Virus record (IMG/VR): IMGVR_UViG_3300029319_000003
Span: 120,188-184,187 of that record
DNA length: 64,000 nucleotides
Source: a virus
Strand: one strand, 5' to 3'
Part shown: positions 50,203 through 63,401 of the stretch, piece after piece
Position numbering within the stretch: position 1 is the stretch's first letter
Layout of the letters: every line of letters starts with the position of its first letter
The notes under the pieces: generated by a model
What the model saw: the letters and a program-made list of their open reading frames with translations, nothing else
Told to the model about the DNA's origin: nothing
Database searches by the model: none
Position numbers and translations under genes: made by a program

Positions 50203-50421
50203 TTATTTTTTGTTTTCCATCGTTGCCAACTGTACTAAATGGTGAGTGCTTGTCCAAGCAACATGCCCCTGCGGCTTAGACCAGTGAACCTTCACTTCGC
50301 TGTATGGCTTCGGAACGGATGCACCTGCACTTGCATGCGGCGATACATACTTTTCGATGACAATTCCCACACCGTAATCAGGAATGCCAGCAAGGTATCG
50401 AACCAGATCTCCTACTTGCAT
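50203..50421 (-). CDS. KOW/SH3-like small protein (family F1)
   Basis: 72 residues. Pattern of the repeated family: MQVGDLVRYLAG at the start, then GVGIVIEKYV, then SEVKVHWSK, then a hydrophobic end. It resembles a five-stranded SH3/KOW barrel of the kind found in NusG C-termini and ribosomal proteins, hence a possible RNA, polymerase or protein binder; this is inference. It follows the 50421 gene with an overlapping start. Confidence 0.75.
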   Translation of the reverse strand: MQVGDLVRYLAGIPDYGVGIVIEKYVSPHASAGASVPKPYSEVKVHWSKPQGHVAWTSTHHLVQLATMENKK

Positions 50422-50660
50422 TAGCCGACCACCTCTCCGTAGCGTGCAAAGTTAGTGGCGCGGATAGTTTGGGTTACACCGCGTTGGAAGTGGATACGAA
50501 TAAGATAATCTGCACGATTAGCACGTTTACGAGCCTCGATAACAACTCCAGTGTCGTAGACCCATTCAAAGGCAAGTTCGCCACGGGCAGCGCGTTCTCG
50601 TCCGCGTTCGGGATGAACAACGGCGCGACGATAGCGAACAACATCTCCAACATTAACCAT
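50421..50660 (-). CDS. KOW/SH3-like small protein
   Basis: 79 residues from ATG at 50660 (MVNVGDVVRYRRAVV), chosen because it follows the stop of the 42-residue gene and fits the family start. The middle is Arg-rich (HPERGRERAARGELAFEWVYDTGVVIEARKRANRAD) and the end IRIHFQRG. More basic than its relatives, which may favour nucleic-acid binding. Confidence 0.7.
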   Translation of the reverse strand: MVNVGDVVRYRRAVVHPERGRERAARGELAFEWVYDTGVVIEARKRANRADYLIRIHFQRGVTQTIRATNFARYGEVVG

Positions 50661-50662
50661 GA

Positions 50663-50791
50663 TTAAAACCCTTCCACGCCGCAGCGGGCGTAACACTCAA
50701 GCAATGATTCGTACTCCACCAGCCACGCCCGACGGAGGATGATACCTCCCGGCTGGAGTTCAAGAGGAGTGATTTGAACGAACTTAGTCAT
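50663..50791 (-). CDS. Small protein (42 aa), unknown
   Basis: 42 residues from ATG at 50791 (MTKFVQITPLELQPGG...). Start context and tight spacing with both neighbours (its stop sits 3 bases before the next ATG) support translation, but codon evidence is thin. Contains two Cys in the C-terminal half (ECYARCGVEG). Confidence 0.5.
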   Translation of the reverse strand: MTKFVQITPLELQPGGIILRRAWLVEYESLLECYARCGVEGF

Positions 50792-50806
50792 GATTAAAAA
50801 CCTTTC

Positions 50807-51013
50807 TTAAAACGGAATCGGATCTTCTACAATCTCAAAATCTTCGCCAACAAAGAGCCAAACATTTTCCTTTGCCGTCACACGAAGCGGAGCACCGCTT
50901 GCGATGATCTCTTCCTCACGAAGAGCGATGTAGAAGTAAGTCCCTCGCTGGATAGTGTGGATGCCGTCGGCAACTGGGGTCACAATATCTCGGATAGTAC
51001 GAATGCGTGTCAT
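50807..51013 (-). CDS. Small protein of the RxIRDx pair, unknown
   Basis: 68 residues (MTRIRTIRDIVTPVADGIHTIQRGTYFYIALREEE...). The start resembles the next gene (M..IR..RD.), so the two probably arose by duplication. Acidic end. No known domain. Confidence 0.65.
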   Translation of the reverse strand: MTRIRTIRDIVTPVADGIHTIQRGTYFYIALREEEIIASGAPLRVTAKENVWLFVGEDFEIVEDPIPF

Positions 51014-51031
51014 ATCTAAAATCTCTCTTTC

Positions 51032-51268
51032 TTAACCAACAGTACCAACAACAACTGGAAGAACAACATAATCATCTGGATCAAGAGCAACAACACCAGC
51101 ATCAGGATCTGCTAAATCACAAGGAACAAAAAGAGCAGCACCACAAGCACCATCCGCTCCCCAACGATTAGCAGCAACATCATCATCAGTAACAACACGA
51201 AGTGCGCCCTCACCAATACGAACAACACCACCAAAATCAACATCACGAACAATACGAATAATTGCCAT
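51032..51268 (-). CDS. Small protein of the RxIRDx pair, unknown
   Basis: 78 residues (MAIIRIVRDVDFGGVVRIGEGALRVV...), Val/Asp/Ala-rich, with two Cys around residues 40-50. Codons for Val and Asp are strongly biased to GTT and GAT in this stretch. It follows a promoter at 51315-51342 after a 46-base leader. Confidence 0.7.
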   Translation of the reverse strand: MAIIRIVRDVDFGGVVRIGEGALRVVTDDDVAANRWGADGACGAALFVPCDLADPDAGVVALDPDDYVVLPVVVGTVG

Positions 51269-51314
51269 TTTCTTTTTCCACCGGGCGGGACACTATCGCC
51301 CCAACCACAAATAT

Positions 51315-51342
51315 ATTGTAGCAGGCGACCGGTGGAAGTCAA
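51315..51342 (-). promoter_or_regulatory. Sigma70-like promoter before the 51032 gene
   Basis: Minus strand: TTGACT (51337-51342), 16-base spacer ending TGC, TACAAT (51315-51320). Almost consensus -10 with extended TGC. Confidence 0.8.
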
Positions 51343-51350
51343 GGAAGAAA

Positions 51351-51599
51351 TTAAGTTTTTTTCTTTTTTTCTCGATATAAATCACATAGTCGTCGGATGT
51401 TTTCGGGAGATCTCTTCAACAACTCTAGATCTCTTGCGGCGATTCGTTTTACTTCGCCACTGCCTTGCAGCACAACCGTAGCAATCTTTTCCCACGACTC
51501 ATATTTTAAAACGATAGCGACGGCATTCCAGCCCTTCTTGCCAGCATGCTCATCGTCCTCGTTGATGCACCAAACCCTTACCAGATCACCTTTTTCCAT
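51351..51599 (-). CDS. KOW/SH3-like small protein
   Basis: 82 residues. MEKGDLVRVWCINEDDEHAGKKGWNAVAIVLKYESWEKIATVVLQGSGEVKRIAARDLELLKR fits the family: GDLVR entry, AIVL strand, hydrophobic core. An Arg/Lys-rich tail (NIRRLCDLYREKKKKT) is extra. Overlaps the next gene by 14 bases. Confidence 0.75.
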   Translation of the reverse strand: MEKGDLVRVWCINEDDEHAGKKGWNAVAIVLKYESWEKIATVVLQGSGEVKRIAARDLELLKRSPENIRRLCDLYREKKKKT

Positions 51600-51825
51600 A
51601 TTCGACTGGAAGAGAAATAATTTTCAAATCAACAGCAGCGACGGACTCAATACATGGCACAGTGCTGATCACCTTAAACACTGGATGGTCCTGCCACAAC
51701 ACCTTGTATCGCTCGCCGCGCAACTCTTCTGGTGCGTCATAGTTGACATACGGCGCAGACACCACAATACCGATTCTTTCAATGTTGCGTGCGATGGCGG
51801 TCTTAACTAATGTGCCTTTCTCCAT
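51586..51825 (-). CDS. KOW/SH3-like small protein
   Basis: 79 residues from ATG at 51825 (MEKGTLVKTAIARNIERIGIVVSAPYVNY), chosen over an upstream Met on family alignment; an upstream frame reaches 51882. EELRGERYKVLWQDHPVF gives the central strands and the end LKIISLPVE is the usual family finish. Confidence 0.72.
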   Translation of the reverse strand: MEKGTLVKTAIARNIERIGIVVSAPYVNYDAPEELRGERYKVLWQDHPVFKVISTVPCIESVAAVDLKIISLPVEYGKR

Positions 51826-52114
51826 TCTCTTCTTCCTTTTTGTTTTTATAAAACTTTGCCCTTCCACTTCGGAGGGCATCAAATATATTTTGCTCTATTT
51901 CGAACTGATCGTCTCCGCGTCCGTCCTTACCGCCACCTATCCAATAGATCTCCCAACACCAACAGACAGACGGCGAAAAGTCTGCCGACACTCTTACTTC
52001 GCCCGTTAGATTGAACCGACTCATGAGTATGCCAGCGCTGGGTGGTGTGTCATCTGTTGCTAAAACATGGATCAGATCCCCGGCTTTTAATTTTATATCC
52101 TCACCTTTTCCCAT
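51803..52114 (-). CDS. KOW/SH3-like small protein (long form)
   Basis: 103 residues. MGKGEDIKLKAGDLIHVLATDD has the GDL start shifted by a short extension. Middle strands TGEVRVSADF and WEIYWIGGGKDG fit the barrel, then an acidic helical end. A CTATTTAT string stands 3 bases before its start. Confidence 0.7.
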   Translation of the reverse strand: MGKGEDIKLKAGDLIHVLATDDTPPSAGILMSRFNLTGEVRVSADFSPSVCWCWEIYWIGGGKDGRGDDQFEIEQNIFDALRSGRAKFYKNKKEEENGERHIS

Positions 52115-52135
52115 GAAGATAAATAGAACAAGTTT

Positions 52136-52717
52136 TCAGTACGCCCTATATGGATCTTCAAAAGTATAAAATTCGAAGCCGTCCACTTCGTCTTGAAGTT
52201 TCTCAAACACCTTTAGAGTACGCTCACAGTCTGCCAATGCAGTGTGTGCTTCGCCGGTCCATTGAACCTTAAAGTGTTCGCATAAATAATCCATACGGGT
52301 TTTCTGAAGTACGCCAGCCCACTTTAACTCATCTGCCATTGACTTTGTGTCAACGTAGGGTGGGTATTTAATTTCTTTTAACTTATTTCTTTCACACATT
52401 TCATGGATAAAGTTTAAATCGAATATCAGGTTCTGCCCAATAAGAAAGTCTGACTCTGTAATTGCTTTTTGAATTGTGGGGTATGCTTCTTGAAATGGAA
52501 TCGCCTCTGCCCACTTCTCTTCTGCGTATCCGTTGATCTCCAATGCCTTGGGAGAAGCCAAGTGAATGGCTTCTGGTTTGATTTTCTGATCGTACTTGCG
52601 AAGCACATATTCATTTCCATCGGCATCCACAATATAACTAATAAAAGCAATCTCAATAATCTCATGCTTTTTTCGATTAAGCCCTGTTGTTTCAGTATCG
52701 ATAACCGTAAATATCAT
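52136..52717 (-). CDS. DnaQ-type 3'-5' exonuclease (DEDDh)
   Basis: 193 residues. ExoI motif FTVIDTETTGLNRKKHEIIEI gives the Asp/Glu pair, ExoII FLIGQNLIFDLNFI the Asp, and ExoIII HTALADCERTLKVF the His/Asp. Intact DEDDh set; probable role in DNA repair, nucleotide recycling or RNA trimming, not replicative proofreading, since no polymerase motif lies near. Confidence 0.92.
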   Translation of the reverse strand: MIFTVIDTETTGLNRKKHEIIEIAFISYIVDADGNEYVLRKYDQKIKPEAIHLASPKALEINGYAEEKWAEAIPFQEAYPTIQKAITESDFLIGQNLIFDLNFIHEMCERNKLKEIKYPPYVDTKSMADELKWAGVLQKTRMDYLCEHFKVQWTGEAHTALADCERTLKVFEKLQDEVDGFEFYTFEDPYRAY

Positions 52718-52765
52718 AATATACAGCCCCGCCGATGAAAGAGCGAGGCGTTCTCCTTTTAATTT

Positions 52766-53311
52766 TTATTCGTCAGCAGCCCAGTTGATATAGGACATAA
52801 GACATTGTGTCATTTGCGCGTCATACTTGGCGTCATCAACATACAAGCCCAGCCGAGCGGCTAGCCGCCGCCCACGCTTCCATGCTTCAATCTCCTCTGC
52901 AACCAGAGACACCCGATAAGCGGCAGAACGCTGGACGCGACCGTCGGTGGTCTGAGCGTACATTGGATGCTCTTGACTAAACTTTTCTGAGGTTCGATCA
53001 ACCAGCAAGTGACCACACTCATGAAGCAAGGTGTAGAATCTTGACTGTGCATGCTTGCGTGAGTTAAGATAAATCCTCTTCTTCTGGTAGATAATCGCGT
53101 CCTCAAGGTCGGTATACTCAATGACGGCGAACCCCTTTGTGGCGACCCAATCTTTAACCGCGTCGATTTGGTCTACCCAGTCCGCATTATCAAGAGGGCA
53201 AGTCAAGGCTTCTCCTTTGTTAGAGGCAACAACTCTTCCTACATTCATAATATAACATGCATACATCAGCGCGTCAACTGGTGTAATGTCAAAATTAATT
53301 TCGCCGGACAA
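52766..53311 (-). CDS. ImmA/IrrE-type metallopeptidase
   Basis: 181 residues. FYTLLHECGHLLVD holds HExxH near residue 100, and EEIEAWKRGRRLAARLG further on fits the third-ligand helix of ImmA/IrrE proteins. Relatives cleave repressors to release prophages or stress genes. In a lytic phage it may inactivate a host or prophage repressor. No paired HTH repressor gene is adjacent. Confidence 0.82.
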   Translation of the reverse strand: MSGEINFDITPVDALMYACYIMNVGRVVASNKGEALTCPLDNADWVDQIDAVKDWVATKGFAVIEYTDLEDAIIYQKKRIYLNSRKHAQSRFYTLLHECGHLLVDRTSEKFSQEHPMYAQTTDGRVQRSAAYRVSLVAEEIEAWKRGRRLAARLGLYVDDAKYDAQMTQCLMSYINWAADE

Positions 53312-53319
53312 TTTTTGAC

Positions 53320-53514
53320 CTACGACTTCAGTTTATTTTTTTGTTCAGGCGGGTAAACCATTTCCAAAGATTGCATGATCTTATCATAGGCTCCTTGATG
53401 AACCTTGATAGCGTCTTCGGTTGATGCGCTTCCGTGCATCCCTTGCCATATGTCTAACACTTCTTTACCGACTTTGGCTTCTTCAATTCTAAGAATAATT
53501 TCTTTTGCCGTCAT
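53320..53514 (-). CDS. Small helical protein, unknown
   Basis: 64 residues (MTAKEIILRIEEAKVGKEVLDIWQGMHGSASTEDAIKVHQG...), SD AAGGAG before the ATG at 53514. Entirely helical with a Lys-rich end. The 168 bases upstream (53515-53682) contain only short frames and a weak hairpin; no gene there can be supported. Confidence 0.7.
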   Translation of the reverse strand: MTAKEIILRIEEAKVGKEVLDIWQGMHGSASTEDAIKVHQGAYDKIMQSLEMVYPPEQKNKLKS

Positions 53515-53682
53515 TTTTCTTCTCCTTAAAAAAAGGCTTAGGGAGGATCGCTCTCCTCGCTTGCGATCTTGCCAGTCATCCGTTAATTTTTAATCTGGTG
53601 CCTTTCTCTCAATTCCTTTTGCGCTCGGTTATGGGTTCGTTGATGACGATGAACCCCGCATATACCATGTGGCTCCCTAAGC

Positions 53683-53868
53683 CTATCGATATACAGATCT
53701 TTCTAAAACTTGTATATCATTATTTAAGTCGCCTATCTCGTCTCTAAGTAAATCATTTTCATTTTCTAACGATTCAATTCTTTTAAGCAGCAAGTCAATC
53801 TTAAGTCGTAAAACTTTAACAGAGTTTGTCTTGCGATAGTCAATAGCCTCAATGCTTTCGGGATCCAT
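53683..53868 (-). CDS. Small coiled-coil protein, unknown
   Basis: 61 residues from ATG at 53868 with TAGGTG upstream; a GTG at 53877 is also possible. KTNSVKVLRLKIDLLLKRIESLENENDLLRDEIGDLNND forms a clear heptad coil. Possibly a dimerisation or scaffold peptide. Confidence 0.7.
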   Translation of the reverse strand: MDPESIEAIDYRKTNSVKVLRLKIDLLLKRIESLENENDLLRDEIGDLNNDIQVLERSVYR

Positions 53869-53882
53869 CTTTTGCACCTACA

Positions 53883-54116
53883 CTAACTGGTGAATCCCGC
53901 CATACGCGCAGACTTCAGATCTTGTTCGGATGGCATAAACTCTTTGTTGATATGCCGACACGAAGCGCATCGAAAAATTGGAATTGGAATAACTCCACCC
54001 GGCATCCGCTTTACAATAAACACGGTGTCGAATGTGTTTGCATTACACTTTTCACAGACCACATCTTGTGCCCCGCTCAAATCCATTTTTGGCATCCCGC
54101 CCATTTGATTGTTCAT
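53883..54116 (-). CDS. Zinc ribbon protein, unknown
   Basis: 77 residues; MGGMPKMDLSGAQDVVCEKCNANTFDTVF then CASC near the C-terminus make a CxxC...CxxC zinc ribbon around a hydrophobic sheet (VFIVKRMPGGVIPIPIFRC). Start ATG at 54116 with AAGGAGAT. Typical of phage-encoded transcription or host-takeover ribbons. Confidence 0.8.
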   Translation of the reverse strand: MNNQMGGMPKMDLSGAQDVVCEKCNANTFDTVFIVKRMPGGVIPIPIFRCASCRHINKEFMPSEQDLKSARMAGFTS

Positions 54117-54161
54117 CTTTATCTCCTTGTGTAGAAAGTATATCTCTTATATTTGCGAGTG

Positions 54162-54392
54162 TTAAGAATTTTCTGAAACTACTCGCAACTCAGCCTCAAA
54201 AAATGTTTGTTTCTCTCCGTTGACAAAAACAAGATAGGCTACACCGTCACCTCTTTCAAGGTCCATATAGTAGTCCGAATCGCCGGGACTCGCAAACTCC
54301 ACCTTGTCAAGCACAATGCCAACTGCGTTGTTGAAGTTCTCCGTCTTGTCTAAGTGGCTGGTAATCTTTACTGCGCTGCCTATAGGAATCAT
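54162..54392 (-). CDS. KOW/SH3-like small protein
   Basis: 76 residues. MIPIGSAVKITSHLDKTENFNNAVGIVLDKVEF: GDL replaced by IGS, but the GIVLDK strand and the end FEAELRVVSENS keep the family pattern. ATGA overlap with the gene at 54389. Confidence 0.7.
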   Translation of the reverse strand: MIPIGSAVKITSHLDKTENFNNAVGIVLDKVEFASPGDSDYYMDLERGDGVAYLVFVNGEKQTFFEAELRVVSENS

Positions 54393-54796
54393 TCATCCCG
54401 CCTTTTAACCTCTTCGCTGAGAAGTTTGCCGCACTCTGGGCATTCGGCAGGTAGCCTGTTGACCATTCCCCACCTACAGTGTATGCATAGCCATCGATGA
54501 TCACTCTTTCCACTATTGAGGGTTACTACTTCCACCGGGTCAATATTTTCTTTACTCATATCTCTCGCTTTGCTAATAATTTCAAGGTTCTTGTCGCGGA
54601 GGTCACCCAAGCACCATTCGGCATTTTTGGGATTGTATATCACCACACAGTTTGAATCTTTTTGAGATACCTCAATCACTATTCCATATTCATAGATTGG
54701 GTCATAAGGGTACACCATGCCAACATCGTCGGCTGCAAAAGATTCATAATCTACAATCCATCTTACCAGATCACCACGCTTTATAGGGTCGCTCAC
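54389..54796 (-). CDS. KOW/SH3-like protein fused to a zinc ribbon
   Basis: 135 residues (GTG start). N-terminal SDPIKRGDLVRWIVDYESFAADDVGM and YGIVIEVSQ match the family. The C-terminal half WLCIHCRWGMVNRLPAECPECGK is a separate four-Cys ribbon. This is the only relative here with this second domain, so the barrel may be a mobile module. Confidence 0.75.
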   Translation of the reverse strand: MSDPIKRGDLVRWIVDYESFAADDVGMVYPYDPIYEYGIVIEVSQKDSNCVVIYNPKNAEWCLGDLRDKNLEIISKARDMSKENIDPVEVVTLNSGKSDHRWLCIHCRWGMVNRLPAECPECGKLLSEEVKRRDE

Positions 54797-54816
54797 ATGT
54801 TTAAATATAAGCAGTA

Positions 54817-55077
54817 CTAAGTAGTCGCAACCTTTTTTATAATCTCAGAATCATAGACCCAAGTTTTATCACCCGGCTTTTTAAATGGGATCGACCATCG
54901 CTTTCTCAGTACATCAATCTCAGATTGATAAACCATTTCGGCACGCCAGCCTTTGTATCCGTCCCAAGAGCCGGTTGACTCTTGTATTCTCCGCTCAAGC
55001 AATCTGACGTGAAATTTAGGAATAGCCTTTCCAGTCATGCTTCTGATGAGAACTACATCGCCTTCTTTATATGTCAC
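54817..55077 (-). CDS. KOW/SH3-like protein, divergent
   Basis: 86 residues (GTG start overlapping TAG as at 1580). MTYKEGDVVLIRSMTGKAIPKFHVRLLERR and end SEIIKKVATT; weaker family resemblance, with longer loops (FKKPGDKTWVYD). Confidence 0.6.
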   Translation of the reverse strand: MTYKEGDVVLIRSMTGKAIPKFHVRLLERRIQESTGSWDGYKGWRAEMVYQSEIDVLRKRWSIPFKKPGDKTWVYDSEIIKKVATT

Positions 55078-55925: not shown

Positions 55926-56138
55926 TTATCCCCTCGGGCTCAAAAGAGCAAGTTGATCTTCGGTATACCATCGCTCTTTACACTCATCGCCGGCGAGACG
56001 GTAGACAGTCCGCATGCGAAAAATACCAGTCTCTGTCGCGCCCCAATCGCCATGCTGCGGGACAATCTCATCCCGCTTATTGACAATAACTCGTTTTGTG
56101 CCTGTGCCCCAAATGGCAACAATGTCTCCGACGTTCAT
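55926..56138 (-). CDS. KOW/SH3-like small protein
   Basis: 70 residues from ATG at 56138 (MNVGDIVAIWGTGTKRVIVNKRDEIVPQHGDWGATE), start placed by family and SD CAGGGGATAAG. Ends RWYTEDQLALLSPRG with the polar turn and final L.LLS of the group. Confidence 0.75.
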   Translation of the reverse strand: MNVGDIVAIWGTGTKRVIVNKRDEIVPQHGDWGATETGIFRMRTVYRLAGDECKERWYTEDQLALLSPRG

Positions 56139-56143
56139 TTCAC

Positions 56144-56359
56144 TTATCCCCTGCTGATAATCCGAACATTTGCATCCCGAAAGATTTCTCTTTGACCACT
56201 GATGCACAGGTATCGTCTGACGCCGCCAATGAAAGGAGAACGCTCAATCCTATAGACAACGCCTGTTATATCTGTCTTCCACCCACTGGGCGAGTAGACT
56301 TGAACCAAGTCACCCACCTCTGCCCATGAGCCATGATTGTTTTGGTCGCTACGGTTCAC
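56144..56359 (-). CDS. KOW/SH3-like small protein
   Basis: 71 residues (GTG start overlapping TGA). NRSDQNNHGSWAEVGDLVQVYSPSGWKTDITGVVYRIERSPF and end VRIISRG fit the family with an N-terminal extension of ~14 residues. Confidence 0.72.
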   Translation of the reverse strand: MNRSDQNNHGSWAEVGDLVQVYSPSGWKTDITGVVYRIERSPFIGGVRRYLCISGQREIFRDANVRIISRG

Positions 56360-56862
56360 GCCGCACTAACCAACTCAAGGTCACGCTGTGGGAAGCCATA
56401 GTTATAACGCGGAGGATATTCCTCACCCATCCAGTGAACCTTAACGTAACTCCCAGTATCCATCACAAGACCAGTCTTGCCGGCATAGCCATTACGCTGC
56501 GCTCGCTTGTTGTCCTTGCCTCGGACAAGAGCACCGACCGGAAACTTTGGTGCTGGGGGCTTCAAAGAGTGAAGCATCTGCGTGCAGTTGTCGCGGAAAG
56601 AACCAGCAAAGTAGTCCGTCATCAAATCAGAATGGTCATTGCTTCGACGGATATGCCAGTTGTGGGCATAGGCTTCGTCCTTCGGACCATAGTTACCTTC
56701 AGCATCCTCGCCGTAGGCTTGCTGCGTCAGGAAAGAGCCAACGTAGTTTTCGTAAGTGAAGTAATACTTCGCATGATATTTGGTATTCACACCATGCTCG
56801 TCCTTCGTAACTTTAACGCCGAGGTATTTCTCAATCTTTTTAATTGCTTTCGAAACTTCCAC
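56356..56862 (-). CDS. KOW/SH3-like domain C-terminal to a novel N-domain
   Basis: 168 residues (GTG start after AAGGAGTGAG). Residues 1-105 form a separate domain (MEVSKAIKKIEKYLGVKVTKDEHGVNTKYHAKYYFTYENYVG). The last ~60 (PVGALVRGKDNKRAQRNGYAGKTGLVMDTGSYVKVHWMGEE...RDLELVSAA) are a family member. A promoter (56902-56930) stands directly upstream. Confidence 0.75.
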   Translation of the reverse strand: MEVSKAIKKIEKYLGVKVTKDEHGVNTKYHAKYYFTYENYVGSFLTQQAYGEDAEGNYGPKDEAYAHNWHIRRSNDHSDLMTDYFAGSFRDNCTQMLHSLKPPAPKFPVGALVRGKDNKRAQRNGYAGKTGLVMDTGSYVKVHWMGEEYPPRYNYGFPQRDLELVSAA

Positions 56863-56956: not shown

Positions 56957-56964
56957 CACCCAAA

Positions 56965-57303: not shown

Positions 57304-57326
57304 CACTAACTCCTTCTTACATATAT

Positions 57327-57355: not shown

Positions 57356-57362
57356 GCAAAAA

Positions 57363-57379
57363 CCGGACAGAAAATGTCC
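57363..57379 (-). terminator. Hairpin CGGACA-N5-TGTCCG after the 57381 gene
   Basis: 6-bp stem, loop TTTTC, then GGTTTTTG on the minus strand. Transcription from the membrane-protein gene stops here and the next promoter starts within ten bases. Confidence 0.75.
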
Positions 57380-57380
57380 G

Positions 57381-57569
57381 CTAGTAATTTTTTATTTTTG
57401 CCGCGCATGTATTGTACGCTTCCTCGCTATGATCATTGGCTTCAGTCATACAGTCCATGACACTCTCCAAGAACAGTGTGCGAGGGTGAACCCACATTGC
57501 CCACCAACCAGCAGCGAGACTAATGCACACAACAGAAAATAAAATCATATCTCTAATTTCGTTTTTCAC
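57381..57569 (-). CDS. Small membrane protein
   Basis: 62 residues (GTG start). A hydrophobic helix (IRDMILFSVVCISLAAGWWAMWV) near the N-terminus, then a polar tail (CMTEANDHSEEAYNTCAAKIKNY) with two Cys. Inserted among the KOW-like genes with overlapping ends, it may bring their products to the membrane; inference. Confidence 0.7.
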   Translation of the reverse strand: MKNEIRDMILFSVVCISLAAGWWAMWVHPRTLFLESVMDCMTEANDHSEEAYNTCAAKIKNY

Positions 57570-57723
57570 TTACGATCTCCAACAGTCCTGTGGTCATCCA
57601 GTTCGTTCGACCATCAACATTAACTTTCACAGAGTTACCACTAACATCAAGCACAATACACAAGATAGTATCACGCTGATTACCTTTGGCTCGATAGAGT
57701 CTCACCAAGTCACCCACATTCAT
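57553..57723 (-). CDS. KOW/SH3-like small protein (56 aa)
   Basis: 56 residues, ATG at 57723 (MNVGDLVRLYRAKGNQRDTILCIVLDV), the smallest kind of the family. NSVKVNVDGRTNW and LLEIVSEKRN complete the barrel. Overlaps neighbours at both ends. Confidence 0.72.
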   Translation of the reverse strand: MNVGDLVRLYRAKGNQRDTILCIVLDVSGNSVKVNVDGRTNWMTTGLLEIVSEKRN

Positions 57724-57928
57724 GCACCACCTCTAGTTCAATAACCGGAATAGTCATCTTCCGCTCCTGTCCAAAAAATACAACAGCATGCTCTTCAGGC
57801 TCCACAATATCCCAGTTGATCTGCCGCCCGAGTTCGTGAGTTCGCCAACACTTCTTTTGTAGAAAGTCTATTGCGACCCCAACACTGAGGGAACCTTTTC
57901 TAAGTCTAACTAAATCACCGACCTTCAC
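57710..57928 (-). CDS. KOW/SH3-like small protein
   Basis: 72 residues from GTG at 57928 (VKVGDLVRLRKGSLSVGVAIDFLQKKCW), a TTG one codon earlier is possible. Strands EEHAVVFFGQERKMTIP and VIELEVVHECG complete the pattern. Confidence 0.72.
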   Translation of the reverse strand: MKVGDLVRLRKGSLSVGVAIDFLQKKCWRTHELGRQINWDIVEPEEHAVVFFGQERKMTIPVIELEVVHECG

Positions 57929-58187
57929 CAACTACCTCCACTCCATCAGTGATCCGACCCATCGTGGTGGGTGTTCCGTTAACCGGCGGGTAAATCATTT
58001 GCGGATAATCGCTCCGTTCTCTACCTCCCGACACACAACGATCAACTTCAATAACATATCGCTGACAGCCTTCAAACTCGTTGAGCCCGATCACGACGCC
58101 CTCCATATAACATGAACGAGGTCCGTCAAGATCCCGCATATAATGAAAGTCAAAAGACCGAACACGATTGCCAATTTCAATTTCCAT
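57915..58187 (-). CDS. KOW/SH3-like protein, divergent
   Basis: 90 residues from ATG at 58187 (MEIEIGNRVRSFDFHYMRDLDGPR) with GGAG six bases upstream. SCYMEGVVIGLNEFEGCQRYVIEVDR retains the GVVIGL strand. Long Ser/Arg loop follows. Confidence 0.7.
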   Translation of the reverse strand: MEIEIGNRVRSFDFHYMRDLDGPRSCYMEGVVIGLNEFEGCQRYVIEVDRCVSGGRERSDYPQMIYPPVNGTPTTMGRITDGVEVVGEGR

Positions 58188-58392
58188 TTTTATCTCCATA
58201 GGGTGAACTGATTACTTGTAAATATGTGTCGTTGATAGTGTGTACATGAGATTTGCCGTGGGCAGTCCACAAGACGCGAAATCTTTGTTGCCCCGGTCGG
58301 TCCCAAGCAGGATCGTTTGGCAGAACTTCAAGCACAAGACCAGAGCCCTGCAATGTCCCAAACTTGTGTTTAACTAAGTTACCGACCAGCAC
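58177..58392 (-). CDS. KOW/SH3-like small protein
   Basis: 71 residues from GTG at 58392 (VLVGNLVKHKFGTLQGSGLVLEVLPND). RFRVLWTAHGKSHVHTINDTYLQVISSPYG gives V.W and final Q.ISS. Start chosen by family. Confidence 0.72.
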   Translation of the reverse strand: MLVGNLVKHKFGTLQGSGLVLEVLPNDPAWDRPGQQRFRVLWTAHGKSHVHTINDTYLQVISSPYGDKNGN

Positions 58393-58558
58393 TAACCACC
58401 TCAAGGTCACAAGGAGAGCATATCACATTTCGTGTATGGTCAAGCGGCTTCACAACCCACTCTAGTCCAAAGACAGAGGAATGGTGGTGTCTAACAATCA
58501 CAGCCAACTTCTGACCGTAATGTTTTGTTTGAACTTTTACTAAATCACCGACTTGCAT
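58379..58558 (-). CDS. KOW/SH3-like small protein
   Basis: 59 residues from ATG at 58558 (MQVGDLVKVQTKHYGQKLAVIVRHHHSS), then FGLEWVVKPLDHTRNV and CDLEVVSAGR. Overlaps the gene at 58545. Confidence 0.75.
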   Translation of the reverse strand: MQVGDLVKVQTKHYGQKLAVIVRHHHSSVFGLEWVVKPLDHTRNVICSPCDLEVVSAGR

Positions 58559-58721
58559 CAACCAACTCCAAACCATCTTGGGCGAGCACCATGATGTGAC
58601 CCGCAATCAAAACTTCCCAACACTTCACAATACGGGCGAAGGGGCGAACAATAAGACCAACATCTCTGACCGACCCGCTGGGTCCGAAACCCTTGAGGAC
58701 TACCAAGTCACCGACCTGCAT
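58545..58721 (-). CDS. KOW/SH3-like small protein (58 aa)
   Basis: 58 residues from ATG at 58721 (MQVGDLVVLKGFGPSGSVRDVGLIVRPFARIVKCWEVLIAGH), end LELVDASR. ATG overlaps the stop of the 58721 gene (TAATG). Confidence 0.72.
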   Translation of the reverse strand: MQVGDLVVLKGFGPSGSVRDVGLIVRPFARIVKCWEVLIAGHIMVLAQDGLELVDASR

Positions 58722-58942
58722 TAATCACCTTCCACGACGGCTTCAAACTTATCAGCACGATCAAAGATTTGTGCCAACTGATTAACCACTCGACCGTCGA
58801 TCACATTATCGACAGGAGTTTGGAACTGGACTTTAAACCCACCCCACTCAGCATTATACATAGTGTGTTCAACAACGATACCAACTCCACCCGTTCGCGG
58901 GTGTCGGACCAAGGTTCCTACGGTGATTGCTGGCTGGTTCAT
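58721..58942 (-). CDS. KOW/SH3-like small protein
   Basis: 73 residues from ATG at 58942 (MNQPAITVGTLVRHPRTGGVGIVVEHTMYN), SD AAGGAG. FKVQFQTPVDNVIDGRVV then AVVEGD. First gene of a promoter-driven operon. Confidence 0.78.
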   Translation of the reverse strand: MNQPAITVGTLVRHPRTGGVGIVVEHTMYNAEWGGFKVQFQTPVDNVIDGRVVNQLAQIFDRADKFEAVVEGD

Positions 58943-58971
58943 TACTAACTCCTTCCGCTCAGTACATATAT

Positions 58972-59000
58972 AATGTAGCATAGGAGCGCAGCACTTGCAA
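58972..59000 (-). promoter_or_regulatory. Sigma70-like promoter of the 58721 operon
   Basis: Minus strand: TTGCAA (58995-59000), 17 bases ending TGC, TACATT (58972-58977). Confidence 0.78.
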
Positions 59001-59042
59001 GGTTTAAATGTAAAGAAAATGTCAAGAAAAATTAAATAGGGG

Positions 59043-59279
59043 TCATTCAGCATCTTCCTCACTATAGAACTCTGACACTAGCCCAATTCTACCGGGATGC
59101 TCCCAGTGTATTTTTCCATTGTTCCACAGCACCTTATAAACTCTATCTGTAAACTGCAAGTGCCACGTTGTCTGGTTTTTGATTTCCTCTACTTCTAAAA
59201 TCAGCCCAACCTCATCTTCGTCCATGTGGGCGATGTTTTCTTTGTAAATAATCCTTACAACCAAGTCGCCTATTTTCAC
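59043..59279 (-). CDS. KOW/SH3-like small protein
   Basis: 78 residues (MKIGDLVVRIIYKENIAHMDEDEVGLILEVEEIKNQ...), then YKVLWNNGKIHWEHP and acidic end. ATGA overlap with the 59276 gene. Confidence 0.78.
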   Translation of the reverse strand: MKIGDLVVRIIYKENIAHMDEDEVGLILEVEEIKNQTTWHLQFTDRVYKVLWNNGKIHWEHPGRIGLVSEFYSEEDAE

Positions 59280-59518
59280 TTTGCTCTGCTTACAATCTTA
59301 AGATCTGTTCTATAGAAAAAATTAATCCACCGGTCCCGCCCATGTGTTGGTCCGTTGTTTCCAATCCATTGAACGTGGTATCGATTGTCGTATCGGCTTT
59401 TCTCAACCCTCTTAAGCAGCCCCACGACCTTTCCTTCGCGAACTTCCTTAGTCCATGTTTTGAGTGAAATCAATTTACAGCCCCGTGCTGAAAGTGTCAC
59501 CAGATCTCCCGGTTTCAT
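59276..59518 (-). CDS. KOW/SH3-like small protein
   Basis: 80 residues. MKPGDLVTLSARGCKLISLKTW..., EGKVVGLLKRVEKSR, YHVQWIGNNG and LKIVSRAK: the full family order can be read here, making it a good representative. Confidence 0.8.
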   Translation of the reverse strand: MKPGDLVTLSARGCKLISLKTWTKEVREGKVVGLLKRVEKSRYDNRYHVQWIGNNGPTHGRDRWINFFYRTDLKIVSRAK

Positions 59519-59530
59519 ATTTTCTCCAAG

Positions 59531-59707
59531 TTATTTATTTTCCCAATCACCGTCGTCAAACAGCGCCTGTACTCTTTTATTTAGTTCTTCAATTTCTTGT
59601 CTGCGCTCTCTTGCTTTCTGCCAAGATTGGATCGTTACGCCGACAACCAAAACCGACACAAGCCCGAGCGAGAATAATCCAAATATAACCACGTCCAGTG
59701 TTACCAT
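59531..59707 (-). CDS. Small membrane protein with coil
   Basis: 58 residues (MVTLDVVIFGLFSLGLVSVLVVGVTIQ then a KARERRQEIEELNKRVQALF coil). One membrane helix and one cytoplasmic coil. Starts within the stop region of the 33-residue gene. Confidence 0.65.
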   Translation of the reverse strand: MVTLDVVIFGLFSLGLVSVLVVGVTIQSWQKARERRQEIEELNKRVQALFDDGDWENK

Positions 59708-59802
59708 TTCATATCATCCCATACGCCCCACCAGACATATATCATCGCAGCGTTGGCGGCACAAACGAGCAACAGCCCGCCTACAATAACTTCAATGTTC
59801 AT
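59701..59802 (-). CDS. Micro-membrane protein (33 aa)
   Basis: 33 residues (MNIEVIVGGLLLVCAANAAMIYVWW...). One hydrophobic helix with Trp-rich end. Its stop overlaps the next ATG and its start overlaps the KOW-like gene, so translation is probable though the gene is tiny. Confidence 0.55.
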   Translation of the reverse strand: MNIEVIVGGLLLVCAANAAMIYVWWGVWDDMKW

Positions 59803-59956
59803 CGATCACCTCAAACACCACATGGTTTGGATCGCATACAATTTTAAAACCCTTCTCATCAATCAATATAACGTACCCGCGTTGAGCGTCAGTATACTTA
59901 CCAACCAATACAAGCCCATCGGTCCATGTTGCCCTAACCTTGTCACCGATCTTCAT
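59792..59956 (-). CDS. KOW/SH3-like small protein (54 aa)
   Basis: 54 residues from ATG at 59956 (MKIGDKVRATWTDGLVLVGKYTDAQRG), then YVILIDEKGFKIVCD and VVFEVIDEH. Chosen over an upstream start by family. Confidence 0.7.
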   Translation of the reverse strand: MKIGDKVRATWTDGLVLVGKYTDAQRGYVILIDEKGFKIVCDPNHVVFEVIDEH

Positions 59957-60119
59957 TGATAGCCTCAAGCCTTTGCGCCTGCTCTTTTGTGTAGTGCCAT
60001 TCACCATTTATATTGTCCCACCGGACCACAACATAATCTTTGCTTATCTTGACAACCTCGCCAAGCGCTTCGTCATACTTCCACATTGGAGCCATGCGGA
60101 CTCGATCTTTAACTTTCAT
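59943..60119 (-). CDS. KOW/SH3-like small protein (58 aa)
   Basis: 58 residues from ATG at 60119 (MKVKDRVRMAPMWKYDEALGEVVKISKDYVVVRWDNI), a good V.W strand. GDL replaced by KDR. Overlaps the 59792 gene. Confidence 0.7.
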   Translation of the reverse strand: MKVKDRVRMAPMWKYDEALGEVVKISKDYVVVRWDNINGEWHYTKEQAQRLEAINEDR

Positions 60120-60330
60120 TTATTATCTCCACTTCATATTTCTTCACATCGATCATGCAGCGAATCCCCCGGCACAGTCCCACATATATGTAATCTATAT
60201 CTGGATGCCAATCTCGCAAATCCTCTGAATACAGACTACCAGAAAACTTTTCAATCACCAGTGTTGGCGGTGACCAGTCATCGGGGGAACCAAACGCCAT
60301 GCGGAACTTAACCAGATCTCCGATCTTCAC
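60109..60330 (-). CDS. KOW/SH3-like small protein
   Basis: 73 residues from GTG at 60330 (VKIGDLVKFRMAFGSPDDW...), overlapping the TGA of the preceding gene. PPTLVIEKFSGSLY and the end KYEVEIINES match. Confidence 0.75.
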   Translation of the reverse strand: MKIGDLVKFRMAFGSPDDWSPPTLVIEKFSGSLYSEDLRDWHPDIDYIYVGLCRGIRCMIDVKKYEVEIINES

Positions 60331-60611
60331 TTGCCCGCCCAAAAAATATCAACATGACCGACGGGCACCTTAAGAACAACCATGCGCCAGCCTTGCCATA
60401 TAGGCAGCAAGATCTTGCTACGGGTCTGCTCGTCAAGGTTTTGATCTGTGTCTTCCATTTCCAGAATAGCGCGAATAATATTGCCGCCGTCATCGGACCA
60501 GAAGTCAACGGTGAAGCGCCCCTCCCAGTGCATTGCAATATGCTTCATAAGGGAACGCTTCGCTTCCTCGCGGGGAGCCTTGTTCTTCTTGTTGAAATAG
60601 ATATTAGCCAT
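60327..60611 (-). CDS. Small protein, unknown
   Basis: 94 residues. ANIYFNKKNKAPREEAKRSLMKHIAMHWEGRFTVDFWSDDGGNIIRAILEME: alpha/beta, with a Trp-rich C-terminus. Not a member of the KOW-like family, and I know no function for it. Starts near a TTGACA at 60636, without a good -10. Confidence 0.72.
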   Translation of the reverse strand: MANIYFNKKNKAPREEAKRSLMKHIAMHWEGRFTVDFWSDDGGNIIRAILEMEDTDQNLDEQTRSKILLPIWQGWRMVVLKVPVGHVDIFWAGK

Positions 60612-60703
60612 GTCACTTTAATTAGGGTTGAGTGTTGTCAATATTGCTGTTATTGCCGTTTTTCGAAAAAAATTATTTTGCGTTTAAAGCCCTCAAACGC
60701 TAA

Positions 60704-60913
60704 TCATGCTTTACTCACAATTTCTAAAAGTGCAAAGTCGTTACCACGCATTAGTTGCATAGCATTGATTCCTTTAATTTTTGGTCCCATCCATCGGACA
60801 TGGACAGTGTAAGGTTCTTCGTCAATTGCGATAATCATTCCCATTTGCTCCCAAGGCAAAACGCTTTCGCGAATTCGAACGAGGTCACCAACCTTATAGT
60901 CAAGAACAGCCAT
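60704..60913 (-). CDS. KOW/SH3-like small protein
   Basis: 69 residues. MAVLDYKVGDLVRIRESVLPWEQMGMIIAIDEEPYTVHVRWMG with RWMG strand and end ALLEIVSKA. A promoter lies upstream at 60923-60952. Confidence 0.78.
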   Translation of the reverse strand: MAVLDYKVGDLVRIRESVLPWEQMGMIIAIDEEPYTVHVRWMGPKIKGINAMQLMRGNDFALLEIVSKA

Positions 60914-60922
60914 GCGTTATAA

Positions 60923-60952
60923 ATAGTACAGCCGCCGATGCATGAATTGCAA
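60923..60952 (-). promoter_or_regulatory. Sigma70-like promoter of the 60704 gene
   Basis: Minus strand: TTGCAA (60947-60952), 18-base spacer, TACTAT (60923-60928). The string TACTATTTATA overlaps the -10. Confidence 0.6.
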
Positions 60953-60962
60953 TTTAATTTTT

Positions 60963-61196
60963 TTATTCTTCAACTTCATCGCAATCAATATTGTCAGGAC
61001 AGTCAGTATAAGAAACATCAAAGTGGTGCAATTGATCTCCGTCAATAAGACGCAGCCGCCCGAACACACTTACAATATACTTGTCTTCATCTTTGTTTGG
61101 CTGTTCCATGACCAACCCTACAAGTTGCTTCAAGAAAGGCTCGGGCATATCGCGTGGAATGTCGATCTTCACCATGTCACCAGTTTTAAAATTCAT
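60963..61196 (-). CDS. KOW/SH3-like small protein
   Basis: 77 residues from ATG at 61196 (MNFKTGDMVKIDIPRDMPEPFLKQLVGLVMEQPNKDEDKYIVSVFGR). End is acidic with two Cys. Overlaps the TGA of the 42-residue gene. Confidence 0.72.
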   Translation of the reverse strand: MNFKTGDMVKIDIPRDMPEPFLKQLVGLVMEQPNKDEDKYIVSVFGRLRLIDGDQLHHFDVSYTDCPDNIDCDEVEE

Positions 61197-61324
61197 CAGA
61201 CAATCACCGACAAAATAATAAGACCAAGAAACATTGCCAGTGGGGCAATCCAAAGCATATGCACATCACTCTTGCTCTCGGGGGTCATGCCCCGCAGCAA
61301 TGCCTTCCAATACTCTTCCATCAT
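61196..61324 (-). CDS. Micro-membrane protein (42 aa)
   Basis: 42 residues (MMEEYWKALLRGMTPESKSDVHMLWIAPLAMFLGLIILSVIV), one membrane helix at the C-terminus. Start/stop overlaps with both neighbours. Confidence 0.6.
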   Translation of the reverse strand: MMEEYWKALLRGMTPESKSDVHMLWIAPLAMFLGLIILSVIV

Positions 61325-61500
61325 GGTAACACCTCCGCAATCCTATCGCGAGCAAAAATAAAATACCCGCCAACATCAGGGTGCTTCAACTTGACACTTT
61401 GGTCTTGCACCTCAACAACAGTATACACCACATCGCCATACATTTGCAATGATTTTTCGTGTACCATCATTCGAATCTTATCGCCTACTTTTACTTTCAT
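61321..61500 (-). CDS. KOW/SH3-like small protein (59 aa)
   Basis: 59 residues from ATG at 61500 (MKVKVGDKIRMMVHEKSLQMYGDVVYTVVEVQDQSVKLKHPDVGGYF), end IAEVLP. Start placed by family; the open frame extends much further upstream. Confidence 0.7.
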   Translation of the reverse strand: MKVKVGDKIRMMVHEKSLQMYGDVVYTVVEVQDQSVKLKHPDVGGYFIFARDRIAEVLP

Positions 61501-61672
61501 ATGCCACTTCCAATTGGTCTTCGTACCACCACCCAGTCGGGGAGGACTCCGAAGACCACAGTATTTTAAAACTTGCCGGGACCGACCGGTCGTCCGTGTC
61601 GAGCACCAAACCAAGACATTCAATACCGCGTGCAATATCATACACACCATAAACCAGATCGCCAATTTTCAT
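61478..61672 (-). CDS. KOW/SH3-like small protein
   Basis: 64 residues (MKIGDLVYGVYDIARGIECLGLVLDTDDRSV), then FKILWSSESS and LEVAYESKSRR. ATG overlaps the TGA of the 44-residue gene. Confidence 0.78.
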   Translation of the reverse strand: MKIGDLVYGVYDIARGIECLGLVLDTDDRSVPASFKILWSSESSPTGWWYEDQLEVAYESKSRR

Positions 61673-61803
61673 TTACGATATTCCGATTGTCTTTGTCGAA
61701 AAAAATTTTCTACCACACTTATGCTTATAGCCAGCAATAAGCCGCTACTCATCAGTATGCATCCGAGCCATGCAGTCTCAGATATAAATTCACTTAGTTC
61801 CAC
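61669..61803 (-). CDS. Micro-membrane protein (44 aa)
   Basis: 44 residues from GTG at 61803 (VELSEFISETAWLGCILMSSGLLLAISISVVENF...). One membrane helix; overlaps neighbours at both ends. Confidence 0.55.
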   Translation of the reverse strand: MELSEFISETAWLGCILMSSGLLLAISISVVENFFRQRQSEYRK

Positions 61804-61966
61804 TTACTATCTCCATACTAGCGTAATGCACTTGATATGGATGCATGCGACCATTAATGACCACGATCCATTGACCCGGCACTTGCTCCCGAACCAGTAA
61901 GCCAAGTTTCCCTTTGTATTGAGGATAACTCGCGTCACATAGTTTGACGAGTTCACCCGGCTTCAT
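61790..61966 (-). CDS. KOW/SH3-like small protein (58 aa)
   Basis: 58 residues from ATG at 61966 (MKPGELVKLCDASYPQYKGKLGLLVREQVPGQWIVVINGR), SD GGAG. End MEIVSGTK is the family finish. Confidence 0.75.
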   Translation of the reverse strand: MKPGELVKLCDASYPQYKGKLGLLVREQVPGQWIVVINGRMHPYQVHYASMEIVSGTK

Positions 61967-62279
61967 GATCTCCACCACAGTCATGCTTTATCTTTTGTGC
62001 CTTACCACCTTTAAATTTAATCCACAACCCCCACATGATGGGTACCGCCAACCAGTGGAGGCAGAGTATCCAAGCGGCAGGTGCGCCGGCATAGAACGCG
62101 GGATGAACATGATTTCCAAGAAATATAAAAAGCAAAGGGAATAGCACATCCTCGATAATCTCCCAACCGATAATGATAACTACCAGCGCCACCCCATTTT
62201 CACGCATCGTCTTTTTAATGTTGCTCCACTTGAAGTGTTCCAACTTATGAGACAATCTATGCTTAAGCCATTTAATCAT
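61953..62279 (-). CDS. Membrane protein, unknown
   Basis: 108 residues. Basic N-terminus (MIKWLKHRLSHKLEHFKW) then two to three hydrophobic segments (GVALVVIIIGWEIIEDVLFPLLFIFLG, PAAWILCLHWLAVPIMWGLW) and a charged end. Possibly an inner-membrane host-modifying protein. Confidence 0.72.
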   Translation of the reverse strand: MIKWLKHRLSHKLEHFKWSNIKKTMRENGVALVVIIIGWEIIEDVLFPLLFIFLGNHVHPAFYAGAPAAWILCLHWLAVPIMWGLWIKFKGGKAQKIKHDCGGDHEAG

Positions 62280-62496
62280 TTGAAGAACCTACAAGTTTGA
62301 GATAAGAAAAATGCTCGGTGGTTTGCTTTGTGTCAGCCCACAGTACTCTAAACCGATGCCCTGTCGAGAATCGCGATGGTCCAGATACATCTTCTAATAC
62401 CAGACCGGGGTTCGCGTAATCTTTGCGATTCATCACCCAAGAGTTCGTGTGGAACATAACTAGATCACCGACATTTATTTCTTCTCTATCGGTCAT
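62272..62496 (-). CDS. KOW/SH3-like small protein
   Basis: 74 residues from ATG at 62496 overlapping a TGA. INVGDLVMFHTNSWVMNRKDYANPGLVLEDVSG then HRFRVLWADTKQTTEHFSYLKLVGS. Full pattern. Confidence 0.8.
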   Translation of the reverse strand: MTDREEINVGDLVMFHTNSWVMNRKDYANPGLVLEDVSGPSRFSTGHRFRVLWADTKQTTEHFSYLKLVGSSND

Positions 62497-62846
62497 CAAG
62501 ACTTGCCTTTGTGATTTGCATTGCCGGCGTTATAGGCAACATGGCGCATCGGTCGATTGCCGATAGTTGTTTGCGAACCGGATAGGTGGCACGACTTGCC
62601 CTTGTGAAAGCCCGTGACGGCTTTCCAAGCCTTAGAGTAGGCTTCCCTATCCGCATCGCTTTCAAAGGCGACTATGGACATGCCAGCAGCCTTGCCATCG
62701 CCTCCTTGCAGTCCTAGATACTTTACGGCAGTCTCCGTGCCAAGTTCCTCCACGCAATCTGGGCATTCATTAATCTTGCCGCCGGCTTGACGCTTTGCCC
62801 ACGAATCGGGGTCGAACGGATAATTGCAATGCACACACTCTCTCAT
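62496..62846 (-). CDS. Zinc-ribbon protein, unknown
   Basis: 116 residues. N-terminal CVHC...CPDC ribbon around ECVHCNYPFDPDSWAKRQAGGKINECPDC, a central AGMSIVAFESDADREAYSKAWKAVTGFHKG and a basic end. Overlaps the 62843 gene by ATGA. Role unknown. Confidence 0.75.
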   Translation of the reverse strand: MRECVHCNYPFDPDSWAKRQAGGKINECPDCVEELGTETAVKYLGLQGGDGKAAGMSIVAFESDADREAYSKAWKAVTGFHKGKSCHLSGSQTTIGNRPMRHVAYNAGNANHKGKS

Positions 62847-63043
62847 ACTTCACTCACCTTTGAAATAACTTTTAAATACTGGCAGTCATACCACTCTGGA
62901 TCGCCCCAGCCAATCCACTGGACCAATGCCAACAAAGCACCGCCGGGGATGCTGTCGTCTTCTACTGGACCAGATAAAAGAATACCATGCGCTATCGGCG
63001 CATCTGACGTAAACTTGTCAACAACTAAATCTCCAACATTCAT
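62843..63043 (-). CDS. KOW/SH3-like small protein
   Basis: 66 residues from ATG at 63043 (MNVGDLVVDKFTSDAPIAHGILLSGPVEDDS), overlapping the TGA of the basic-protein gene. LVQWIGWGD and LKVISKVSEV complete it. Confidence 0.78.
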   Translation of the reverse strand: MNVGDLVVDKFTSDAPIAHGILLSGPVEDDSIPGGALLALVQWIGWGDPEWYDCQYLKVISKVSEV

Positions 63044-63183
63044 GTGTTGCACTTCCCCTTGTGTTTAACCTTTCGCGTATACCGTGACTTGTCTTTGTGC
63101 TTACCCGCGCCACTGCGGAAGTGGGCTGCGACCGCCAACCAGTTACGCGGTTTTGGTTTAGTGACTACTACTTTGTTTTTCAT
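63040..63183 (-). CDS. Small basic phage protein (47 aa)
   Basis: 47 residues (MKNKVVVTKPKPRNWLAVAAHFRSG..., then KHKDKSRYTRKVKHKGK). Highly basic with the RNWLAVAAHFRSGAG motif, which I recall from other phages in this size class. Possibly a nucleic-acid-binding micro-protein. ATGA-type overlaps at both ends. Confidence 0.78.
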   Translation of the reverse strand: MKNKVVVTKPKPRNWLAVAAHFRSGAGKHKDKSRYTRKVKHKGKCNT

Positions 63184-63401
63184 GATCCTGCGACCTTAAA
63201 CTCTTTAGATTGCTCCCAACAACCAAAGCCGCCCATAATACCGGGAGCGATAGGAACGTCGGGCGCAGCCGGATCTTCCTCAACCAAAAGAACCCATGAA
63301 CCATCGTCATCGTCCATAGTAGCCGCTACCTCAAATACCAACTCCGCGTCATCTGGATGCGGGCGAACGTACTGAACTAAATCTCCAACTGAAACAAACA
63401 T
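63180..63401 (-). CDS. KOW/SH3-like small protein
   Basis: 73 residues (MFVSVGDLVQYVRPHPDDAELVFEVAATMDDDDGSWVLLVEEDP), Pro-rich middle and end SKEFKVAGS. First gene after the promoter at 63424-63452, with AGGAGG before the ATG. Confidence 0.78.
   Translation of the reverse strand: MFVSVGDLVQYVRPHPDDAELVFEVAATMDDDDGSWVLLVEEDPAAPDVPIAPGIMGGFGCWEQSKEFKVAGS

Follow-up and report, generated by a model that had tools for sequence, protein, structure and literature searches.

How does a phage come to carry some thirty divergent versions of one small gene in a row, and what might such a collection do for it? The question is raised by the final 64 kb of the virus record IMGVR_UViG_3300029319_000003 in IMG/VR (positions 120,188 to 184,187 of 184,187 bases). 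This stretch of 64,000 nucleotides, called the window here, encodes on its minus strand a long series of short open reading frames (ORFs) between window positions 50203 and 63401. We propose, with a probability of about 0.6, that these ORFs form a cassette array of small SH3/KOW-barrel genes, in which homologous recombination shuffles the genes at a coding joint between neighbours and which supplies early, host-directed binders.

The gene family and its coding joint

A preliminary description of the window had counted 31 candidate genes of one strongly divergent paralogous family in this region. All 31 were found on the minus strand, roughly where they had been placed, and they code for proteins of 54-168 residues. 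Divergence is as strong as had been claimed, with best all-versus-all BLASTP E values of only 0.002-1. A profile hidden Markov model had been suggested as a check of the family, and leave-one-out profiles aligned most members (17 of 31 at E<0.01, 23 at E<0.1 and 28 at E<1). A profile from other phages, built without any sequence from the source phage, matched 21 of the 31 at E<0.01, 26 at E<0.1 and 29 at E<1, consistent with a single paralogous family. E values given below for single members refer to this independent profile unless marked otherwise. Membership thus held for 29 genes at E<1, three of them weakly: 51803-52114 (E 0.14), 61321-61500 (E 0.53; leave-one-out 0.093) and 63180-63401 (E 0.5). 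It did not hold for 54817-55077 (E 27; leave-one-out E 45), which is unconfirmed, or by this profile for 57915-58187 (E 75). The latter is a probable member with a joint-like C-terminus, VEVVGEGR*, and reaches 2.5e-10 solely with a profile that includes it. In a seven-contig set, 129 ORFs matched a family profile at E<0.01, compared with no shuffled and no reversed protein.

What holds the array together is the junction between neighbouring genes. The 3' end of one gene and the 5' end of the next share a stretch of about 30 nt that is read in two frames. Its consensus is TTGGAGGTnrTmA-RTGAAAGTCGGTGATTTRGTA, also given as TTGGAGGTnrTmA-RTGAAAGTCGGTGAT. One frame codes for L-E-V-V/I-S/N-E/A-S-R-stop (for example LEVISESR*), the C-terminus of the upstream protein. 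Shifted by one base, the same DNA codes for M-K/Q-V-G-D-L-V, the N-terminus of the next protein, and the Shine-Dalgarno sequence GGAGGT sits within the LEV codons. The conserved protein ends seen in the preliminary description are therefore in part a DNA signal common to neighbouring genes. In the window, the joint at 58545-58570 holds the TTGGAG Shine-Dalgarno sequence, the start of gene 58379-58558 and the stop of gene 58545-58721, which overlap by 14 nt (58545-58558). The joints at 58379-58404 (overlap 58379-58392), 57710-57735 (57710-57723) and 59943-59968 (59943-59956) are further examples, and 57915-57940 (GGAGTGGAGGTAGTTG-GTGAAGGTCGGTGAT) counts as another if translation of gene 57710-57931 begins with GTG at 57928.

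This anatomy carries the signature of translational coupling. The overlap is exactly 14 nt at 41 of 62 close junctions in the source phage and five relatives. Among gene pairs outside the array in the same genome, for which the first start codon was taken as the gene start, a 14-nt overlap occurs once and a 4-nt overlap twelve times, overlaps of 4 or 1 nt being preferred. The glutamate of LE[VI] is encoded by GAG in 31 of 31 coupled genes, compared with 17 of 29 uncoupled genes (Fisher ~4e-5, calculated by hand) and 200 of 428 background codons, a test independent of how the overlap is defined. Start-to-start spacings between 120 and 260 nt peak at 150-210 nt, and 374 of 420 are 1 mod 3, as a 14-nt overlap demands. 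The longest coupled run comprises 16 cassettes in one contig. A modular unit had been suggested before from fusion variants; the modularity found here is stricter, as whole genes are joined at the 14-nt joint. The genes share more than these ends. With the joint-encoded ends removed, 175 of 316 held-out bodies still matched the family at E<0.1, compared with 2 shuffled and 1 reversed; because the trimmed bodies match, the similarity exceeds the shared ends, and we rule out an array of unrelated cargo genes that have only their ends in common.

The array is also longer than the closed 13-kb block that had been described. It does not end at 63.4 kb, as 10-12 further members lie on the same strand at positions 1-9.4 kb of the contig. 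Since members occur at both contig ends, the array probably continues across the contig junction. A profile search found none elsewhere on the 184-kb contig. About 20 unrelated small genes are scattered among the family members. A truncated member at 63868-63996 was considered and dismissed, as the joined contig ends give an Hsp20-like frame there. This Hsp20-like ORF is complete only once the contig ends are joined (positions 1-330 plus the window end), consistent with a circularly permuted genome; no terminal repeat proving circularity was found at the contig ends. Against 50,697 phage records, megablast of the region gave no match and tblastn with the family consensus gave nothing convincing.

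Probable exchange at the joints

In the mechanism that we propose, each gene would be one cassette. Because its sequence hardly varies between junctions, the joint would serve as a seam for the phage's own homologous recombination, for which the source phage encodes a RecA-family gene of the RecA/UvsX type. One or more whole genes could then be deleted, duplicated, inserted or swapped, with reading frame and ribosome site left intact.

Comparisons between contigs support homologous recombination at the joint. Two pairs of near-identical contigs (98-100% identity) differ in their cassettes. L119 and L121 are 99.5% identical over 8.4 kb, and the difference between them is one cassette, situated between two copies of ATGAAAGTCGGTGATTTGGT. 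L166 and L179 have a different cassette at one place, with flanks that are 100% identical up to both joints. In contig G001, a duplication of 387 bp (7167-7553/18344-18721; 85% identity) takes in exactly two genes and runs from one joint to another. The G001 gene 18529-18744 (L188, L094) starts MKVGDLVRMKVGDLVRMWDE, so that the joint-coded MKVGDLVR is doubled in frame, likely a recombination scar. Between the more diverged L138 and L166, the common blocks are about one cassette each (84-95% identity) and differ in order. Over 183 short shared blocks, a joint core is no more than 30 nt away from 66% of the 5' ends and 78% of the 3' ends, compared with 30% after random shifts.

Fold, selection and rival explanations

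The SH3-like or KOW barrel proposed in the preliminary description agrees with structure prediction. AlphaFold2 (AF2) models of two window members, 57553-57723 (E 6.7e-9) and 60704-60913 (E 2.4e-7), are five-stranded SH3-like barrels with predicted local distance difference test scores (pLDDT) of 90.2 and 82.6, respectively; the predicted template modelling score of the former is 0.73. Its strands are residues 6-13, 16-28, 31-36, 39-44 and 48-52, with an HHH turn before the last strand. Foldseek returned a probability of 1.0 to SH3, Tudor, KOW and Hfq folds, yet no E value below 0.01, and weak E values are expected for 60 residues. Spt5/NusG KOW domains top the PDB list for the 60704-60913 model, in which Tudor domains also appear. 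The most length-variable part of the family is the loop after the GDLV strand. PDB profile matches to HERC2 and PsaE appeared with alignment A1 and were absent with A2 or A3; they were not used.

The family keeps its barrel core while varying in charge and in this loop. Net charge ranges from -15 to +11 (mean -0.9). When 635 cassettes were clustered by BLAST, 470 fell into clusters spanning at least two contigs, an upper bound, as the largest cluster (318) is partly chained via shared ends. Clean subfamilies form clusters of 6-15 with one member per contig; window examples are 57710-57931 and 59276-59518. By the Nei-Gojobori method, the recent G001 duplicates have ratios of nonsynonymous to synonymous substitution (dN/dS) of 0.36 and 0.23, and an orthologue shared by G002 and G008 has one of 0.16; these values indicate purifying selection and leave rapid positive selection unsupported.

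The sigma70-like promoters described earlier were also found. Six sites match at least 10 of 12 promoter positions on the coding strand, compared with 1.65 expected and one on the other strand. Two of the six lie directly behind a CGGACAT...TGTCCG stem-loop, away from cassette joints. At 57380-57327 the stem-loop CGGACATTTTCTGTCCG is directly followed by an extended -10 promoter matching 11 of 12 positions, an arrangement resembling the promoter-early stem-loop (PeSL) of T4-type phages, and a second unit of the same form occupies 56955-56902. Another promoter (11/12; 63424-63452) precedes gene 63180-63401. Host polymerase would read short cassette operons into which these promoters divide the array, presumably early, and ribosomes would re-initiate at each joint, so that translation of successive cassettes is coupled. 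The timing is suggested by the promoter-like sites.

Could the joint be kept for coupling and compactness only, with genes added by ordinary tandem duplication and exchange a by-product of any short repeat? The selection of GAG at the Shine-Dalgarno sequence and the 14-nt overlap fit coupling alone, and tight gene overlaps are frequent in phages. Several other observations also weigh against a recombination seam or a changing repertoire. The source phage has only about six true joints, its other overlaps being 1, 4, 11, 17 or 23 nt. The joints are themselves conserved, so shared blocks tend to run into them; the blocks nevertheless stop there. The near-identical contig pairs are metagenome assemblies, in which repeats of 20-36 nt may cause misjoins, although misassembly does not easily explain the 85% duplicate, the shuffled blocks of 80-95% identity or the clustering of block ends. 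Some contig-conserved subfamilies end without a joint, a pattern more in keeping with fixed functions than with a repertoire that changes freely. We still consider coupling alone rather unlikely, as the ends of shared blocks cluster at joints, gene order differs between diverged genomes in units of single cassettes, and each near-identical contig pair is set apart by precisely one cassette. Only seven clusters have two copies in one contig, where simple tandem duplication predicts otherwise. It is very improbable that duplicates simply accumulated, selfishly or neutrally, in an early region that the phage can do without. Such an accumulation would match the large copy number and the variable content and order, while purifying selection acts on the duplicates, relatives 55-68% identical exist in other phages and the frames stay open in hundreds of cassettes.

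Two further explanations concern the role of the products. The members could be true KOW factors, NusG/Spt5-like or ribosomal-like accessories tuned to RNA or polymerase state, that act on phage or host transcription or translation. The best profile, A3, is similar to Spt5 KOW over positions 2-29, the KOW motif (E 1.4e-7 to 7.8e-7), and more weakly to uL24 (0.0028) and NusG (0.0066), in line with the Spt5/NusG hits that lead one fold list. T4 MotB, an early DNA-binding protein with a predicted N-terminal KOW domain (PMC7827196), offers a precedent. We think this reading somewhat unlikely, as only 3 of 78 single members reach the Pfam KOW model at E<0.1 (best 0.0031), SH3, Tudor and Hfq-like barrels rank alike for the 57553-57723 model, and the mean charge is negative, where a common RNA binder would be basic. 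Members are single domains of 50-90 residues and none matches an NGN family. The models and profiles warrant describing the members as SH3-like barrels with a KOW-type motif, but not as NusG-like factors. The cassettes might alternatively form a counter-defence fleet, each neutralising a different host immune system, with the array as a library whose content changes as host immunity does. The high diversity, the gene-level turnover between near-identical contigs and the location among small promoter-driven genes, together with an IrrE/M78-type peptidase, would suit such a fleet. No member matches a known family, whatever its function, in Pfam or PHROGs (PADLOC was not run), dN/dS is low and subfamilies are conserved in up to 15 contigs, so we regard it as doubtful. 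For the same reasons of dN/dS and subfamily persistence in 6-15 contigs, the earlier suggestion of diversification against host defences is not favoured in the form of a fast arms race. Under the cassette-array explanation, the products would most likely be a changeable repertoire binding different host proteins or nucleic acids, in host takeover and counter-defence. Polymerase, ribosomes or RNA, named as targets in the preliminary description, may be among what members bind.

Members, relatives and known systems

The members of the window follow each other on the minus strand, listed here by ascending position. The gene 50203-50421 (E 7.2e-10) starts with MQVGDLVRY and adjoins 50421-50660 (E 0.026; leave-one-out E 0.0022). 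After 51351-51599 (E 0.0045) comes 51586-51825 (E 0.0034), with a 14-nt overlap with the next gene. Inside the array, 52136-52717 is a DNA polymerase exonuclease-subunit-like gene, and it adjoins the gene for the IrrE/M78-type metallopeptidase (52766-53311; HECGH, Pfam 2.7e-5). The family resumes with 54162-54392 (E 0.011) and 54389-54796 (E 4.5e-6), whose C-terminal tail is zinc-ribbon-like by the CxxC...CxxC cysteines read in its sequence. Two members, 55926-56138 (E 0.023) and 56144-56359 (E 0.0097), precede 56356-56862 (E 6.4e-4), in which an N-terminal domain of unknown kind is fused to the family domain. A similar fusion is found in a relative (G002:102544-103116), and weak matches point to zinc-knuckle-like segments fused to members in G002 and G008. 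Such fusions lean towards nucleic-acid-related targets.

Several of the following genes have recognisable relatives. The gene 57710-57931 (E 8.6e-5) has a 47% identical relative in L119 (BLASTP 3e-21). Beyond 58177-58392 (E 2.4e-6), 58379-58558 (E 1.4e-8) and 58545-58721 (E 9.2e-7) are each 55% identical to a gene, in L175 and L189, respectively. They are followed by 58721-58942 (E 0.054; leave-one-out 0.0011), 59043-59279 (E 5.9e-10) and 59276-59518 (E 3.4e-7), the last a member of a GDLVTLSxxG subfamily whose cluster spans 15 contigs. The gene 59792-59956 (E 0.0017) is 68% identical to one in L141 (BLASTP 5e-25), and 59943-60119 (E 1.4e-4) is 64% identical to one in L118 (BLASTP 3e-27). The remaining members are 60109-60342 (E 2.4e-5), 60963-61196 (E 0.039), 61478-61672 (E 4.4e-11), 61790-61966 (E 0.008; BLASTP 5e-16), 62272-62499 (E 2.5e-6) and 62843-63052 (E 5.2e-9).

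Judged by its PHROG matches, the source phage is a T4-like (gp23-type) myovirus, with a gp23-like major head protein (3.6e-72), a portal (3.1e-77) and a terminase (4e-54). The closest sequenced relatives of its capsid protein are less than 60% identical. In the gp23-like capsid protein (L005:12815-14722), a central stretch of about 100 residues is unmatched in several relatives, which align in two pieces only. Elsewhere in the window, a transfer-messenger RNA gene (27825-28159; tag ANNNTHFDAVALAA) adjoins six tRNA genes. Just before the window, at contig 105531-120026 (L007 and L008), one ORF of 4831 residues lies upstream of the baseplate genes. L003:5166-6737 encodes a GroEL-like chaperonin of 523 residues. 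At contig 9.9-19.5 kb (L002:9891-19506), about ten otherwise unrelated proteins have the common start M-K-[LI]-[IL]-[ML]-E-N-W-R-[KR]-[FY]-L-x-E. This motif resembles the N-terminal capsid-targeting/cleavage peptides of T4 internal proteins, and these proteins may be packaged and injected.

Arrays of this kind are widespread. At least 120 IMG/VR stretches contain an exact match to the 30-nt joint pattern. In 843 kb of joint-bearing loci, a looser joint core had 723 sense and 3 antisense occurrences, compared with 2 in shuffled sequence; the loci were picked for having joints, which explains only a minority of the 723. All 14 large contigs carry members, 9-32 each, and 12 of the 14 have a gene for the same capsid protein (51-72% identity). 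Shorter capsid-bearing contigs lacking members are fragments and carry little weight. No members were found in seven genomes: T4, RM378, S-SSM7, Flavobacterium phage immuto, Microcystis phage Mel-JY01 and two uncultured jumbo records. From these distributions, the arrays appear to mark a clade of uncultured marine T4-like phages. The chromosome of a WOR-3 metagenome-assembled genome (L237; CP070664.1, near 2.14 Mb) also has family arrays at two sites separated by about 65 kb. A prophage was considered there, but a joint lies near a masked stretch and no clade capsid gene was found, so that an artefact of binning or assembly was judged more probable. Other matches in metagenome-assembled genomes may be phage contigs binned with their hosts.

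The fold and modular shuffling in T4-like phages are both already known. PeSLs (Arbiol 2010, Comeau 2014, via PMC4503421) are thought to mediate early-gene shuffling. Like them, the joint is a short repeat that would serve modular shuffling of early genes, and two stem-loop and sigma70 promoter units are also present here. As far as PMC4503421 describes them, PeSLs are noncoding units, and the genes that they shuffle between promoters are unrelated. In the array, by contrast, the seam is coding and is found between adjacent genes of one operon, and every shuffled gene comes from a single barrel family. The exchange points that we found lie in the coding joint and not in the noncoding PeSL-like unit. 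The members resemble the KOW proteins NusG/Spt5, ribosomal L24/L26 and T4 MotB in their SH3-like barrel and G-D-x-V...G-x-V motif, and differ from them as stand-alone barrels without NGN, in arrays of 10-45, with a variable loop after the first strand. Integron cassettes are promoterless genes, arranged head to tail, that are gained, lost or reordered as units by means of attC sites and an integrase. The array is similar in its head-to-tail promoterless genes that are gained, lost and reordered as units. It differs in that no attC-like noncoding site was seen, the 14-nt overlaps leaving no noncoding space, and in that the seam is the overlapping stop and start itself; integrase genes were not searched for, and the proposed model needs none. 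The hyperplastic, hypervariable regions of T4-like cyanophages are likewise variable and rich in small genes of unknown function (PMC3037559). The genes there are unrelated, whereas here they form one paralogous family, with a fixed coding joint between members.

In the open-licence papers searched, we found no description of coding-joint arrays of one family. It seems about an even chance that they form a new class of cassette array, in which an overlapping coding joint is the seam, exchange within operons proceeds by homologous recombination, and the clade as a whole maintains a host-directed SH3/KOW repertoire numbering in the hundreds. The arrays, absent from the cultured genomes checked, would mark a large uncultured marine phage clade, and other phages can be screened for the joint sequence immediately. 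If the proposal is correct, hundreds of compact binder domains would become available with directly testable host targets. It would explain how T4-like phages maintain large, changing sets of early genes. It would also describe a simple route to protein repertoires, as the coding sequence between two genes would double as the recombination seam and shuffled cassettes would always be in frame and translated.

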